Shown: positions 1-59,743 of the stretch, piece by piece
Layout of the letters: each line of letters starts with the position of its first letter
How positions within the stretch are numbered: position 1 is the first letter of the stretch
Source of the DNA: Deltaproteobacteria bacterium
GTDB taxonomy: Bacteria > Desulfobacterota > Binatia > UBA9968 > JAJDTQ01
Reading direction: 5' to 3'
Length of the DNA stretch: 64,000 nt
Assembly: GCA_028818755.1 (NCBI GenBank)
Contig: JAPPNF010000134.1
Location: 24,094 to 88,093 of the forward strand
Position numbers and translations under genes: made by a program
Notes under the pieces: generated by a model
The model's database searches: none
What the model saw: the letters and a program-made list of their open reading frames with translations, nothing else
What the model was told of the DNA's origin: nothing

Positions 1-262
1 CCCAGGGACCAGCCGCCGAAAGCCCCCGAACCGGTGAACCCTTTCGTGCCGCCCGTCATCCCCGAGAACCAGCCCGCCTCTCCCGCCGCCCGGACAGCGG
101 AAACCGCGGAACCAACGGCCGGTTCAGACTGGTGGGAAACCGGAATGCAGCATGGCCCTGCCGCTCCCGAGCCCAGGGACCAGCCGCCGAAAGCCCCCGA
201 ACCGGTGAACCCTTTCGTGCCGCCCGCGATCCCCGAGAACCAGCCCGCCTCCCCTGCCGCTG
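1..262 (+). repeat. In-frame 171-bp tandem repeat (57 codons)
   Basis: The sequence beginning at base 1 recurs at base 172. The first ~55 bases are identical and the following ~40 nearly so. The period is 171 bases, so frame is kept. The repeat codes for the proline-rich linker of the TPR protein, and more copies may lie upstream of the window. Confidence 0.85.
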
Positions 263-1353
263 AAAGAACGGAGAAATCCGCAACGGAAGACGCCCCGGCC
301 GGCGACAGGGAACCGGATCGGGAGATTTCCGCGCCGCTGGCAGGCGTGTCCGCCGAGACTGAAGCGCCTCCCGAGGGCGTACCCGTCGACATCATTCGCA
401 CGATCGTCGCCAACATCTGCCCCGGCGATCTGCTGTTGGTCGAAACCGGCGAAATCTCTTTGCCGGAGTGGACTCACACGGTCATGACCGCGGCCCGTGA
501 CGATTTGGACCGGCGTGCGGCCGAGGGCATTTCCATCGATGCGAGCGAGTTTCTTCGCTTGGCCATCGTCGAGAACGTCACGGGCTTCCACGAGGAAGCG
601 GAGGCACACCTCAAGGAGGCATTGCCGCGGAGCGACCGGTTGGGTCTTGTCCTGAACGCGCTGGCCGTCGTCAGCTTGGCGCGTGAAAAGATCGGTCCCG
701 CCATCGCCTACGGCAGGGAGGCGATCCAGGAGACCGGCGGGGACGATTCCGTCGCCGCCGCCGTTTTATCCAACCTGGGGGACTTTTATCGTCTCCAGGG
801 CCATGAAGCTCAAGCCGCCGAGGCATACGAGACAGCCATCGCCAGCCTAGGACCGCAAGGAGATTATCGCTGGGCTTCGCGGTTGCATTTGCGCGCCGGT
901 CGCCTCCATCTGCGCATGGATCAGGCGGACAAGGCGCGCCTACATCTTTCCGATTCGGTCCGGTTGTTCAAGGCCGCCCATGACGACTCCGGACACGTTC
1001 AGGCCCTTGCAGAGCTTGGCTCGGTGTTGACCGAATTGGGCTCGCACGACCTCGCCATCAGGAACCTGGAAGAGGGCATCCGTATTTGTCTGAGAACCGG
1101 GGACAGGCCCGGCTCCGCGCTGGTGCAGCAGGTAATCGGTGTGGCATACATGGCCCAGGATCAGTTGACGCGCGCCCTCGCGTACTTCGAGAGTGCCCTG
1201 TCGCTTCACCGCCAATTGGGGGACCGCACGGGCGAGGCCGACACCTTGAGTCACATGGGTAGAATCTATGATTCCCGTGGTGACGTGGAAGAGGCGCGGC
1301 GGTTACAACAAGCGGCCGCAGAGATCAACCGCGAGTTGGGCCGCGAACTCTGA
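1..1353 (+). CDS. TPR-repeat protein with proline-rich N-terminal repeats (5' end outside window)
   Basis: The reading frame is open from base 1, so the true start is probably upstream of the window. The GTG at 34 lies inside a tandem repeat and is not a convincing start. The N-terminal ~110 visible residues are proline-rich and low in complexity, with two copies of an NPFVPP/IPENQPASPAA motif. From about residue 180 onward the protein is helical tetratricopeptide repeats (ALAYFESALSLHRQLGD-type units), which normally mediate protein-protein contacts. It ends 18 bases before a membrane sensor gene and shares a strand with tadD, tadV and cpaB. A role in pilus assembly or regulation is inferred only from this position. 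Confidence 0.75.
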   Translation, partial: PRDQPPKAPEPVNPFVPPVIPENQPASPAARTAETAEPTAGSDWWETGMQHGPAAPEPRDQPPKAPEPVNPFVPPAIPENQPASPAAERTEKSATEDAPAGDREPDREISAPLAGVSAETEAPPEGVPVDIIRTIVANICPGDLLLVETGEISLPEWTHTVMTAARDDLDRRAAEGISIDASEFLRLAIVENVTGFHEEAEAHLKEALPRSDRLGLVLNALAVVSLAREKIGPAIAYGREAIQETGGDDSVAAAVLSNLGDFYRLQGHEAQAAEAYETAIASLGPQGDYRWASRLHLRAGRLHLRMDQADKARLHLSDSVRLFKAAHDDSGHVQALAELGSVLTELGSHDLAIRNLEEGIRICLRTGDRPGSALVQQVIGVAYMAQDQLTRALAYFESALSLHRQLGDRTGEADTLSHMGRIYDSRGDVEEARRLQQAAAEINRELGREL

Positions 1354-1371
1354 CGATATGAGGATCGTACG

Positions 1372-2868
1372 ATGACTCATTCTCTAGGTGTTCGTTTCGG
1401 ATTGGCCGTGTTCTCGCTGGTGTGGATTCCGCTGATCGTTGCGACGGGATGGGGAGCCCAGTGGTTGTGGCAGCGAATGGAAAGCCGCCCGTCCGCCGCT
1501 CTTCAGTCGCTTGCCTTGCGCGGCGATGCCTTGAATCTCACCGAGGCCGCTTCGAGTCTGGCGGAGACTATCGACGCGTTCCTGCTCGACCGCATCGTCG
1601 AGGTGCAGACTTGGGCAGCTTCCTCGGTGGTGGTAGACGCGGTGCACAAGGCGCGAGCTGCCCACGCGAAACAGGGGTTCGACAACCTGTCGATTCAAGA
1701 AATCGAAGACAAGTTCCGGATCAGGAAGAGCCTGGGACTCGCACCCGGGGCGCGCGCCTACCTGAGCGAACAGGTCAGGGCGTCCCCTCATTTCGCCGAG
1801 ATTTTTTTCACGGACGAGTTGGGCTTCAACGTAGCGTTGAGCAACCCGACCACAGATTTCGTTCAGTCTGATGAGAGATGGTGGCGACAGGCATGGTCGT
1901 CTGGTTTTTCCGTAGGCAGCATCGAGTTCGACGCCTCGGCCAATGTGTGGGCGGTGGATCTCTCGGTGGTCATTCGCGACAAGAGGAACAGAAACCCCAT
2001 CGGTGTCATGAAGGCGGTTCTGTCGATACGCTTTGTCCAGTTTTTGTCCGACCGTGTCGCGAGGCGTCTATCCCGGCCTGACCATCTCTTGCATGCTCAA
2101 CTGTCCGATCCGTCGCTCGACGGCAAGAATCGAGACGTTCAGTACCCGGGTGCCCACAGGACGCAATTCGTCGTGTCGACTCGCGATGGGATGTTGATCG
2201 CGGAAACGCGATCCGCGCACGCTCGCGGGCGGATCATGCAGACCGATGTCAGCATACACACGGATCCGTCGCTCGCACACCTGAACCTGTCCTATGACGG
2301 GGATCCAACGGGTTCTTTCATCGCCAACCGGAACGACACGGGGAACAGCCTGTCCGGGACACCCCCGCGGAGTCAACTGGTAGCTTACTCCCGTTCGGCG
2401 GGTACGGGGTTTTACGCACCGGCCATCGATAACTTCTCCGGTTTCAACTGGACAGTCATTGCGGAGGCGCCGAATCTGAGCGGTTACGATGTTCTGCCGG
2501 AACTCACCGGGACGCCGTTGCAGACGAAACCGAATTGGGCCAGAGACATCTTGTTGCTCGGAGCCGGGTTGTGCGGGGTGCTGCTGTTCTCCTCGATCAT
2601 ATTGTGTTGGCTGTTCGGCAAGTGGGTGCTGTCGCCCGTGCGCACATTGATCACCTGCGTGAAACGGATAGAGCAGGGGCACATCGGTGTCAGGGTCACC
2701 CTGTCGTCGAAAGGCGAGTTGGCGGATCTGGCGGCGTCCATTGATCGTATACGCACCATGATCGGGTTGATGGCGGACCGGCTGCGACAGACGAGCACCG
2801 GGCGAAGGCCACCGGGAACGCCGGAGAGCGGTATGCCTCGCCAAGGAAGTGAATCCGGCGGATCCTGA
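1372..2868 (+). CDS. Cache-type periplasmic sensor with HAMP domain and no output domain
   Basis: 498 residues. An N-terminal membrane segment (about residues 8-30) is followed by a long extracytoplasmic region with double-Cache features (DELGFNVALSNPTTDF; DERWWRQAW near 165-180). A second membrane segment (about 387-412) leads into a HAMP domain (SPVRTLITCVKRIEQGH onward). The protein stops after HAMP and a short tail, so no kinase, MCP or cyclase domain is attached. Such proteins normally sense small ligands. Here any signal must pass to a partner, perhaps the TPR proteins on either side or a separate kinase. That coupling is inference. Confidence 0.8.
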   Translation: MTHSLGVRFGLAVFSLVWIPLIVATGWGAQWLWQRMESRPSAALQSLALRGDALNLTEAASSLAETIDAFLLDRIVEVQTWAASSVVVDAVHKARAAHAKQGFDNLSIQEIEDKFRIRKSLGLAPGARAYLSEQVRASPHFAEIFFTDELGFNVALSNPTTDFVQSDERWWRQAWSSGFSVGSIEFDASANVWAVDLSVVIRDKRNRNPIGVMKAVLSIRFVQFLSDRVARRLSRPDHLLHAQLSDPSLDGKNRDVQYPGAHRTQFVVSTRDGMLIAETRSAHARGRIMQTDVSIHTDPSLAHLNLSYDGDPTGSFIANRNDTGNSLSGTPPRSQLVAYSRSAGTGFYAPAIDNFSGFNWTVIAEAPNLSGYDVLPELTGTPLQTKPNWARDILLLGAGLCGVLLFSSIILCWLFGKWVLSPVRTLITCVKRIEQGHIGVRVTLSSKGELADLAASIDRIRTMIGLMADRLRQTSTGRRPPGTPESGMPRQGSESGGS

Positions 2869-2889
2869 TCCACGGAAAAGTCCAGGAGC

Positions 2890-4284
2890 GTGGCAGCCCA
2901 ACTTACGAAATTCTTTAGAGAAACGCCCATATCCACTATGACCGCTGCCCTCGCCCTGTCTCTCGTTGTCGGCGGTTGCGCGTTAGTGAAGGGACAGGAT
3001 CGGTTCGGCGTTGGGCGGGAGCGATTGGATAACGGCCTGAGGGTGGCGTCGGCTTCCGCCGACGCGGGCCAGTTGCGGGCGGCTGAGCGGCTGTATACGG
3101 AACTCTCCCGTCATTTTCCAGACGCGCCGGAGCCCAGGATCGGGCTCGGTTATCTGGCGTTGAGAGCGGAGAACTTCACTCTCGCCGGCAAGTTCTTCAA
3201 CGAAGCAGCAGAGCGGTCCACGACGTCGGCGGCCAAGACAGAGGCTCTGTTGGGAGCGGGCCGGGCGGGGCTCGGCAAGGGAGACGCGGCCGGGTCGAAG
3301 ACGTATTTTCTGTCCGCGTCGGAGTTGGCCAAGGGTACGTCGGCGGAAGCCTGGGTGGCCAACGGCCTCGGCGTGGTGGCGACCCTCGAAGGTGATCACG
3401 CGCGGGCGCGGGCGCTTTTCGAAGAGGCTGTCAAGCTGTCCTCTTCGCATCCGATGATCACCGCAAATCTGATCCGCGCGCTGGCGGAATCGGGCGCGGC
3501 AGACGAGGCGCAACAGATCTACTCCAAATACTCCGCTTCACATTGGCTGGAGGGCGACGCGGCTGACCTGCTGCGGTTGGTCGAGGAAGCGAGAGAGACG
3601 GAAGGGACACCGATAGCTTCGGCGCAGGCGTCGAAGGCAAGTCCGGGTCCGGCCGGAGCTTCCGCCCCAGCGGAGAATGCGGGCCTTGCGATGGCATCGC
3701 GTCCTGCGGTAGCTTCGCGTTCGACCCTGGCTTCGGGCCCCGGCACCCAGGTGCAGATCTACGCGGCGCGCTCGCGGGCCGGGGCGCTGGCCGCCTGGAG
3801 ACGCCTGTCCGCAGCGGAAAAGGACCTGCTCGGCTCTTTGAGTCCTCAGGTGGTGAAGCACAGGACCGCGAAGAATATCTTCTATCGCCTGCGTGTGGGG
3901 CCGCTGGCGGACGAAGCCGCGGCCAAACGGCTCTGCGGCATACTGAAGAGTCGAGGGCGGGACTGTTTTGTCGCCGCAGGGCAACGGAGCGTGAGCGGCA
4001 GTGTCGGTGCGACCGGGAACAGAGCCGCAATGGGCTCGGGCGTCCTGGTGCAGATCTACGCGGCGCGCTCGCGGGCCGGGGCGCTGGCCGCCTGGAGACG
4101 CCTGTCCGCAGCGGAAGAGGACCTGCTCGGCTCCCTGGCTCACCTCGTGGTGAAGGTCCAGGTTCCCGAAAAGGGTGTGTTCTACCGCCTCTTCGTAGGT
4201 CCGATGGCGGACGAGGCCACGGCCAGGCGTCTGTGCGGCAAGTTGAAAGCCCACGGCCAGGACTGCTTTGTCCGGGCGCAGTGA
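2890..4284 (+). CDS. tadD: TadD-like TPR lipoprotein with two C-terminal SPOR domains
   Basis: 464 residues. The N-terminus has a hydrophobic stretch ending in a lipobox (VVGGC, cysteine near residue 30), so it is a probable outer-membrane lipoprotein. TPR units occupy about 45-225, an Ala/Ser/Pro linker about 235-285, and two SPOR domains about 287-365 and 386-464. TadD proteins act as pilotins or assembly factors for the Tad secretin. SPOR domains bind denuded peptidoglycan, so this version could anchor the machine at sites of cell-wall remodelling. The start at GTG 2890 is chosen because it gives the signal peptide a charged n-region; ATG 2938 is the alternative. Confidence 0.78.
   Translation: MAAQLTKFFRETPISTMTAALALSLVVGGCALVKGQDRFGVGRERLDNGLRVASASADAGQLRAAERLYTELSRHFPDAPEPRIGLGYLALRAENFTLAGKFFNEAAERSTTSAAKTEALLGAGRAGLGKGDAAGSKTYFLSASELAKGTSAEAWVANGLGVVATLEGDHARARALFEEAVKLSSSHPMITANLIRALAESGAADEAQQIYSKYSASHWLEGDAADLLRLVEEARETEGTPIASAQASKASPGPAGASAPAENAGLAMASRPAVASRSTLASGPGTQVQIYAARSRAGALAAWRRLSAAEKDLLGSLSPQVVKHRTAKNIFYRLRVGPLADEAAAKRLCGILKSRGRDCFVAAGQRSVSGSVGATGNRAAMGSGVLVQIYAARSRAGALAAWRRLSAAEEDLLGSLAHLVVKVQVPEKGVFYRLFVGPMADEATARRLCGKLKAHGQDCFVRAQ
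3751..4117 (+). repeat. Near-identical duplicated SPOR-coding segments
   Basis: About 69 bases beginning at 3751 are repeated identically from 4048 (offset 297 bases, 99 codons), followed by more diverged SPOR sequence. The identity at synonymous sites points to a recent duplication or gene conversion inside the tadD-like gene. Confidence 0.85.
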
Positions 4285-58878: not shown

Positions 58879-58955
58879 TGGTGGTCGCAGCAGGACTCGA
58901 ACCTGCGACCTCTTGCATGTGAGGCAAGCGCTCTAGCCGACTGAGCTATGCGACC
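58879..58955 (-). tRNA. tRNA-Val (anticodon CAC)
   Basis: On the minus strand a complete cloverleaf is present. The acceptor GGTCGCA pairs with TGCGACC, the D arm is GCTC/GAGC, the anticodon stem CTTGC/GCAAG carries loop CTCACAT, and the T arm is GCAGG-TTCGAGT-CCTGC. The discriminator is A and CCA is encoded. The anticodon is CAC, hence valine. Confidence 0.95.
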
Positions 58956-59024: not shown

Positions 59025-59291
59025 TCACTCCCGCTCCTTGTGCCGCTGCTTGATGCGCTGGTTCAGCGACTGCAGGATGCCGGCGTCGACAGCGGCGATG
59101 ACGTCCACCGCGGCGTCGAGATCCCCCTCCGCGATTCCCGCTTTCCTTGCGTCCGCAAGGCGCCGGTCCACTCAGGGATCGCAGTTACGCGTCATGGCCA
59201 CGGCGAGGCCGAGGAAGATCTTCTCGCGCTCGCTGAGGCACTCGACGGCGTGGGCGTCACGGTAGAACTGGCGGAAGTCTGCCTTCTTCAT
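59025..59291 (-). CDS. AhpD/CMD-like selenoprotein with CxxU motif
   Basis: 88 residues from ATG 59291, directly behind a near-ideal AGGAGGAG ribosome-binding site. The sequence is AhpD/carboxymuconolactone-decarboxylase-like: LSEREKIFLGLAVAMTRNCDP, then in-frame TGA at 59174-59172, then VDRRLADARKAGIAEGDLDAAV and a natural stop at 59025. The TGA sits at residue 40, exactly where the second Cys of the CxxC redox pair belongs (Cys37-Asp-Pro-TGA). A hairpin with the features of a bacterial SECIS follows. I read the TGA as selenocysteine. The alternative is a recent nonsense mutation. It lies 44 bases downstream of an EVE-domain gene on the same strand. AhpD-like proteins are small thiol peroxidases or oxidoreductases. 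Confidence 0.72.
59138..59166 (-). promoter_or_regulatory. SECIS-like hairpin directly after the in-frame TGA
   Basis: Eleven bases after the TGA (minus strand) a perfect 6-bp stem, CCTTGC/GCAAGG, closes a GGAC tetraloop (59160-59145). A short lower CCG/CGG helix lies beneath. The apical loop begins with G and lies 17 bases from the TGA, within the range described for bacterial SECIS elements that bind SelB. Confidence 0.65.
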
Positions 59292-59335
59292 GGATCTCCT
59301 CCTGACACGTCATGGCGACCGCACCGGGGATGCGC

Positions 59336-59743
59336 TCAGCCCTTGGCCATCTCCAGGATCTCGTCGTAGTGGGCGTCGCTCACCGGGACGAAGGAAAGCC
59401 GGCCCAGCCGAAACAGGTCGAAGCCTTCGAGCTTGGGGTTGAGCTTCATCTCGGCCAGCGACACCTCGCGCTTCAACGCCTTGCCCACCTTGATGTCGAA
59501 CACCAGCAGCCTGGGGTCGTCCTTCTCGGGGTCGGCATAGGCGCCGGTGGTGGCGGTGCCGAGGCCGACGCACACCCTCTCGCCGCCAGTGTGGTAGACG
59601 ATGCAGCGATCGCCCTTCTTCACGGTCTTGAGGTGCTTGAGCGCAAGATTGTTCTTGATGCCGTCCCAGATCGTCGACTTGTCCCGTTGCAGGTCGGCGA
59701 AGGAATAGACGCTGGGTTCGGTCTTGAGCAGCCAGTTTGCCAT
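59336..59743 (-). CDS. EVE-domain protein
   Basis: 135 residues from ATG 59743, behind AGGAGG; an upstream ATG at 59782 is not needed. The EVE (PUA-like) domain fills the protein: NWLLKTEPSVYSFADLQRDK at the start, WDGIKNNLALKHLKTVKKGDRCIVYHTG in the middle and the pocket region KEDDPRLLVFDI-type sequence after it. EVE proteins bind modified bases in DNA or RNA. It is upstream of the probable selenoprotein gene and may be co-transcribed with it. Confidence 0.9.
   Translation of the reverse strand: MANWLLKTEPSVYSFADLQRDKSTIWDGIKNNLALKHLKTVKKGDRCIVYHTGGERVCVGLGTATTGAYADPEKDDPRLLVFDIKVGKALKREVSLAEMKLNPKLEGFDLFRLGRLSFVPVSDAHYDEILEMAKG

Follow-up and report, generated by a model that had tools for sequence, protein, structure and literature searches.

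An 88-codon reading frame broken by a single in-frame TGA raises the question of whether that TGA is read as selenocysteine (Sec) and, if it is, what the resulting protein would do for the cell. The frame lies in a 64,000-nucleotide stretch of DNA from a bacterium of the class Binatia, referred to here as the window. It had been noticed from the letters alone, in an initial annotation that proposed a new-type selenoprotein of AhpD/CMD character next to an EVE-domain gene.

A CMD-type frame with an in-frame TGA

The coding sequence runs from 59025 to 59291 on the minus strand, with its start ATG at 59291 and its stop TGA at 59027–59025. With the TGA taken as Sec, its product has 88 residues, Sec40 included, carries the motif C37-D-P-U40 and belongs to the Pfam CMD domain family PF02627 (31.5 bits, cut-off 23); 22 close copies support the frame. 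Codon 40 is the TGA at 59172–59174, and its partner in the CxxU motif, Cys37, is encoded at 59181–59183 by a TGC kept in 22/22 copies. A ribosome-binding site, AGGAGGA (59297–59303), stands 5 nt before the ATG. A plain list of open reading frames with a minimum of 40 amino acids makes only a 48-residue piece 3′ of the TGA visible at this locus. The EVE-domain gene (59336–59743, minus strand; Pfam EVE, 111.8 bits) precedes the selenoprotein gene on this strand at a distance of 44 nt, and both genes end in TGA. A tRNA-Val(CAC) gene (58879–58955, same strand) lies 69 nt beyond the stop of the selenoprotein gene. The initial annotation had named no strand; its AhpD/CMD-type frame of 88 codons, its strong ribosome-binding site and its in-frame TGA at the second Cys of a CxxC were all recovered here.

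Conservation of the TGA codon

A family profile search of 148 genomes of the class returned 20 close copies (>150 bits) in 19 genomes, while the remaining 16 rows all scored <35 bits. A scan of named genome contigs gave 16 loci, of which 14 were already among these copies and two (L069 and L070) were further ones, making a set of 22 distinct close copies. The near copies in the named-contig scan belong to records labelled Candidatus Binatia, Deltaproteobacteria, Proteobacteria and "bacterium", and the assignment of the window's genome to Binatota follows that of its closest relatives (L056–L060). Residue 40 is encoded by TGA in 22/22 copies, and neither Cys nor another stop takes its place in any (0/22 each). 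In CMD proteins of the phylum that are less closely related, the Sec position is part of CxxC or, in another group, of CxPU. The conserved in-frame TGA is thereby aligned with the Cys or Sec of homologues, so that a lack of such homologues at residue 40, one of the failings that the initial annotation had foreseen for its own claim, did not occur. Another was a sequencing error at 59172–59174, which is ruled out because 19 genomes of the class, plus two additional records, all show this TGA. The continuation of family-like sequence beyond the TGA also holds, with equal protein constraint on both sides of the codon (pooled pN/pS in the 22 copies, 0.22 before and 0.20 after).

The hairpin downstream of the TGA

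A 6-bp hairpin, CCTTGC-GGAC-GCAAGG (59160–59145, minus strand), starts 11 nt after the TGA, placing its loop GGAC 17 nt after that codon. The rules for bacterial SECIS elements in the accessible part of PMC13188914 specify a loop of 3 to 9 nt with a G in the first two places, a spacing of 16 to 37 nt and a minimum free energy of at most -7.5; the loop and the spacing of the window hairpin fit them. The strength of the hairpin alone was rejected as evidence, as its fold z-score is -1.91, a fold as good arises in 8 of 200 shuffles, and a lax SECIS rule is passed by 48 of the 246 window TGAs that are flanked by open frame before and after. Furthermore, an Rfam SECIS_1 search of the own genome gave no match, a silence that is uninformative because none of 14 control genomes matched either.

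The 16 hairpin letters are identical in 21 of the 22 close copies. In the sole exception (L070), an A to G change converts a T-A pair into a T-G wobble and the pairing is kept. Codon freezing was examined over codons 1–83 of the 22 copies, where 35 sites were invariant in amino acid and degenerate. A single codon is used at 5/6 such sites in the hairpin (codons 44–49) versus 1/29 elsewhere, namely Cys37 (Fisher p 1.1e-4); since hairpin and other sites share one tree, relatedness favours neither set in this comparison, and the sites are not fully independent. With fused relatives included, 150/150 cells paired across 25 distinct rows, of which 19 were close copies and six fused. At one of the six positions in the stem both partners change, T-A becoming C-G, in five rows of fused relatives, which may represent few events; the other five pairs never vary. 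Minimum-energy folding of the 45 nt that follow the TGA gives all six pairs in 18/22 close copies, five in L021, and another fold in L019, L024 and L078. The SECIS-like hairpin is thus present at the right spacing and kept by selection. The initial annotation was correct about the 6-bp hairpin, its G-first loop and its distance of 11 bases from the TGA. On the evidence of the alignments, the signal above chance is the conservation of the TGA, the hairpin letters and the codons rather than the fold of a single hairpin.

Selenocysteine-decoding genes

In the own genome, selA (586 bits), selB (387 bits) and selD (369 bits) are clustered on the minus strand of contig C9, and there is a tRNA-Sec (73 bits, cut-off 47) that ARAGORN calls as tRNA-SeC(tca). 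An absence of selA, selB and selC, the remaining weakness anticipated at the outset, was therefore not encountered. The selD gene (G000:C9 57403–58329) has one in-frame TGA, in KAAG-U-AAKLG, a position at which SelD proteins are known to carry Sec, and is itself a selenoprotein gene within the selA-selB-selD cluster.

Across the class, selA passes its cut-off in 18/19 genomes carrying the TGA gene; its presence is a weak correlate of the gene because 123/148 genomes of the class have selA over the cut-off anyway. The exception is G206 (L025/L067), a MAG scored as 100% complete, which has the TGA gene and no selA, selB or selD over cut-off. Its copy of the TGA gene sits at a contig end, and a missing contig may explain the conflict.

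Fold and family placement

An AlphaFold2 model, built on a 27-row alignment of the window protein and locus proteins, reached a pLDDT of 91.5 and a pTM of 0.74 and shows four helices, with helix 38–50 beginning at the CxxU. The best Foldseek match was 3bey (TM 0.77, rmsd 1.4 Å, 33% identity), followed by RclX and other CMD/AhpD proteins; no match passes an E value of 0.001 (best 0.0025, probability 1.00), and these best matches place the predicted fold with CMD. The solved CMD proteins 3bey (O27018) and 7y4r (RclX) share the fold of the window protein (TM 0.77 and 0.79–0.80) and match it by sequence profile (E 3.7e-8 and 0.0034), but carry Cys in place of its Sec. We know of no methyltransferase link for either of them.

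The window protein passes no NCBIfam cut-off. Its best match there is TIGR04169 (arsenosugar biosynthesis-associated peroxidase-like, the Cys form), with 36.6 bits over residues 5–73 against a cut-off of 120, which leaves it outside that family; a scanned TIGR04169 member, L030 (116.9 bits), has Cys instead of Sec. The GSU3128 family (NF041047), described as "distant AhpD homolog" with CxxU, likewise consists of short stand-alone CxxU proteins, yet the window protein scores 22.4 bits against its cut-off of 110 and falls outside. MduS (NF045649) has in common with the Binatia operon described below the pairing of a class I methyltransferase with a Sec-containing CMD part (CMD-U). Against MduS, the window protein scores 34.8 bits (cut-off 380), aligning with the C-terminal part, and again falls outside; the stem is in the same register in MduS, in ArsM-AhpD (NF041537) and in the window system. 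However, MduS is one chain with two Sec, whereas the Binatia system comprises two genes with no second Sec after the CMD part, and its methyltransferase matches that of MduS with 24.6 bits at best. Judged by these sequence scores, the window gene is a separate subfamily lying below every NCBIfam cut-off.

The published CMD-like selenoprotein (accessible passages of PMC1088965; Table 1 of PMC13188914) has a small CMD domain, Sec in the second place of CxxU and a hairpin just 3′ of the UGA, as here, and "AhpD-like 2" of the GOS set (accessible part of PMC2398784) shares domain and motif with the window protein. By its CMD domain and the Sec in its CxxU, the window protein falls under the published CMD-like definition. 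The available passages on the CMD-like sets make no mention of an operon with EVE and a methyltransferase. In our tree, the 20 class rows do not form one side of a branch (3 changes), and a branch of 1.75 changes per column with a support of 100/97 separates the fused rows and those of a second stand-alone group, CxPUM, from the rest. A PHROGs search gave no match at 0.01.

Gene neighbourhood in Binatia

In the window's genus, the EVE gene is directly upstream in 9/9 copies, no methyltransferase is present there, and a divergent nfo-like gene lies near all nine. One chromosome of the set carries two EVE, CMD-U and nfo-like copies about 21 kb apart (L021/L058 and L024/L060; G007:C1 1621037 and 1641816), both with the TGA.

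Outside the genus there are 13 copies, of which L025/L067 is cut by its contig, leaving 12 assessable. Ten of these 12 have a class I methyltransferase gene before the selenoprotein gene in the same orientation, within about 260 nt of it in nine of the ten and about 1 kb away in L061. In L061, a Phd/YefM-type antitoxin gene and a PIN-domain gene, resembling a toxin-antitoxin pair, occupy 3155–3876 between methyltransferase and CMD-U. EVE precedes the methyltransferase in 9/10 operons outside the genus; L065/L076 has methyltransferase and CMD-U with no EVE in the flanking stretch examined. L069 and L070 have neither neighbour in up to 10 kb, and no nfo-like gene was seen in the stretches examined around the copies outside the genus. 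Overlap of the EVE and methyltransferase frames was measured in three loci and amounts to 34 nt, given the assumed methyltransferase start; the methyltransferase and CMD-U frames of L068 share 4 nt.

The window's genus keeps the methyltransferase elsewhere in 6/9 genomes (G000 C93:27688–28476, 52% identity). G003 has only a 41-residue piece of it, and no methyltransferase above 36 bits was found in G006 or G008, with no copy above 33 bits in the latter. Among the 148 genomes of the class, 16 have both genes, 3 only CMD-U, 5 only the methyltransferase and 124 neither; within the order of 35 genomes the corresponding counts are 16, 3, 5 and 11 (Fisher p 0.002, without correction for kinship). 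In the five genomes with the methyltransferase only, it is followed by a degraded CMD gene in G501, the contig breaks off in G509, and the 750 nt after the methyltransferase contain no CMD in G499, G500 or G515. At the G501 locus (L082/L129; G501:C122) the CMD gene has decayed to about its first 18 residues, and the genome retains selA and selB. The initial annotation had remarked that the pairing with EVE was unfamiliar. The pairing itself is present in every copy of the genus, but it looks like a remnant, the wider EVE - methyltransferase - selenoprotein operon without its methyltransferase.

Fused and stand-alone relatives

Fusions of a methyltransferase with CMD-U are known as MduS and ArsM-AhpD (Table 1 of PMC13188914). 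Eight loci with long frames were fetched and scored here; six exceed the MduS cut-off (493.6–642.8 bits versus 380), and the other two, incomplete at the 5′ side, match ArsM-AhpD with 393.9 and 473.2 bits, below its cut-off of 510. The second stand-alone CMD-U group (L026, L029, L033, L034, L038, L041, L044, L047 and L081) has the motif CxPUM[ED][HY]Y and a hairpin shifted by one nucleotide. Three of its nine members were scanned, and all fall below every NCBIfam cut-off; assignment to the GSU3128-like family was rejected for these three (31.2–32.8 bits versus 110). L038 and L047 lie just downstream of an arsM (343.5 and 360 bits, over the cut-off), and no arsM-type neighbour was seen by eye at the other seven loci. 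The L047 locus (151–3069, minus strand) reads as an arsenic operon, arsM - CMD-U - ACR3, with the selenoprotein inside; a small upstream gene there looks like ArsR and has no NCBIfam match at 1e-20. The fused and arsM-adjacent relatives support a redox-partner role in general rather than for the Binatia pair in particular.

The upstream methyltransferase

Six of the methyltransferases were scanned, and their best NCBIfam match was the UbiE/MenG subfamily, with 57.7–79.5 bits below its cut-off of 158. ArsM has conserved cysteines. Among 22 aligned methyltransferase rows no conserved Cys was found, and the six score 27.7–38.1 bits against the arsenite methyltransferase model NF008823 (cut-off 263), so that identity of the partner with ArsM was rejected. 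A PDB sequence search with one methyltransferase at 1e-10 gave no match. The N-terminal tails before the FHD motif are His-rich in some members, reaching 27–28 of 70 residues in L125–L128, and contain almost no His in L092 and L132. It is because of the His-rich tails of some members that a metal link is proposed below, as a guess.

Discussion

The present study concerns a gene whose TGA, conserved hairpin, decoding genes, predicted fold and gene order are all direct products of the computation. From the conserved TGA and hairpin, the frozen codons, the equal constraint on both sides and the presence of selA, selB, selD and tRNA-Sec, we conclude that Sec is almost certainly inserted at codon 40 and that this is a selenoprotein gene, as the initial annotation had held. 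Decoding of the UGA would use SelA, SelB, SelD and tRNA-Sec from the same genome, and the hairpin beginning 11 nt downstream would direct it. C37 and U40 would sit at the helix start, where CMD-fold redox proteins carry CxxC, and would form a selenenylsulfide; the protein would most likely be a thiol/selenol oxidoreductase or a peroxidase. Its redox activity is very likely. That the gene encodes a selenoprotein with CMD-type redox chemistry is, leaving partner and substrate aside, highly probable.

Were the UGA a plain stop, the locus would yield a 39-residue peptide or be a decaying gene, and G206, with the gene and no sel genes over cut-off, as well as G501, with only a degraded CMD remnant behind its methyltransferase, could be taken in that sense. 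This is very improbable, as constraint on the protein is as strong after the TGA as before, the TGA is never swapped for another stop or Cys in 22 copies, and selA accompanies the gene in all genomes but one. An in-frame TGA inside a conserved frame would also be expected if TGA were read genome-wide as another amino acid, e.g., Trp. The chance of this is practically nil; TGA acts as an ordinary stop in the window, at the end of both the selenoprotein and the EVE gene, which refutes such a reading, and the residue moreover occupies the Cys position of a CxxC while a tRNA-Sec and a SECIS-like hairpin are present.

Given a redox-active selenoprotein, the most likely cell role in Binatia would be that of a redox partner of the class I SAM methyltransferase, possibly in metal or metalloid handling. 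We infer this role because CMD-U follows the methyltransferase and the EVE gene in related Binatia, and it is further suggested by the MduS fusions and the arsM neighbours of relatives. The partnership has close to an even chance, and a metal or metalloid substrate is doubtful. Weighing on the other side are the L069 and L070 copies, which have no such methyltransferase nearby, G008 with its selenoprotein and no methyltransferase, G499, G500 and G515 with a methyltransferase that no CMD gene follows, and the poor match of the methyltransferase to both ArsM and the methyltransferase part of MduS. The L069, L070 and G008 cases, together with the CMD/AhpD fold and the unlinked methyltransferase of the window's genus, would suit a general peroxide or hydroperoxide scavenger whose methyltransferase and EVE neighbours are incidental. 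We regard such a scavenger as a serious possibility that falls somewhat short of even; it has against it the same-strand methyltransferase in most assessable copies outside the genus, the order-level co-occurrence (uncorrected for kinship) and the same pairing in relatives as a fusion and beside arsM. Alternatively, the partner of CMD-U could be EVE instead of the methyltransferase, in the recognition or repair of modified nucleic acid. The constant EVE neighbour in the genus, its place before the methyltransferase in nearly all operons outside and the nfo-like gene near every genus copy agree with this, but L065/L076 keeps methyltransferase and CMD-U with no EVE in its stretch, and nfo was not seen around the copies outside the genus. 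To our knowledge, no CMD redox protein is linked to nucleic acid. A role with EVE is accordingly improbable.

Returning to the methyltransferase partnership, CMD-U selenoproteins might form a general redox module for SAM methyltransferases, occurring fused (MduS, ArsM-AhpD), beside arsM and an arsenite exporter (L047), and in the EVE - methyltransferase - CMD-U operon. The Binatia methyltransferase, not ArsM-like and with a His-rich tail in several genomes, would then act on an as yet undescribed metal or metalloid, and the sponge-type genus would have unlinked the pair and mostly kept both. This broader scheme is tentative and, taken as a whole, rather unlikely.

With the term "new-type" the initial annotation went too far. 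Lists that include CMD-like CxxU selenoproteins are given in the accessible passages of PMC1088965 (2005, Sargasso Sea), where a CMD-domain CxxU protein appears only as a candidate redox protein, of PMC2398784 (AhpD-like 2, pfam02627, CxxU; more abundant in non-marine samples) and of PMC13188914 (CMD-like and AhpD families). The part of PMC9312934 available repeats the list, and the Geobacter table of PMC1242214 includes a homologue of 4-carboxymuconolactone decarboxylase. The open literature searched held no paper combining "Binatota" and "selenoprotein" and nothing combining EVE domain and selenoprotein; for Binatota and selenocysteine, the word was met only in the reference list of one paper, and MduS turned up in one review alone. 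Nor did that literature, as far as its text was accessible, report the Binatia CMD-U subfamily or the EVE - methyltransferase - CMD-U operon. Thus, the kind of protein is already known, and its gene context with a methyltransferase seems unreported in the open literature searched.

Our study adds a well-supported selenoprotein subfamily in Binatota. A gene caller taking TGA as a stop would probably miss or split the gene, and its product stays below the cut-off of every NCBIfam model. The methyltransferase neighbour offers a testable role for small CMD-U selenoproteins.
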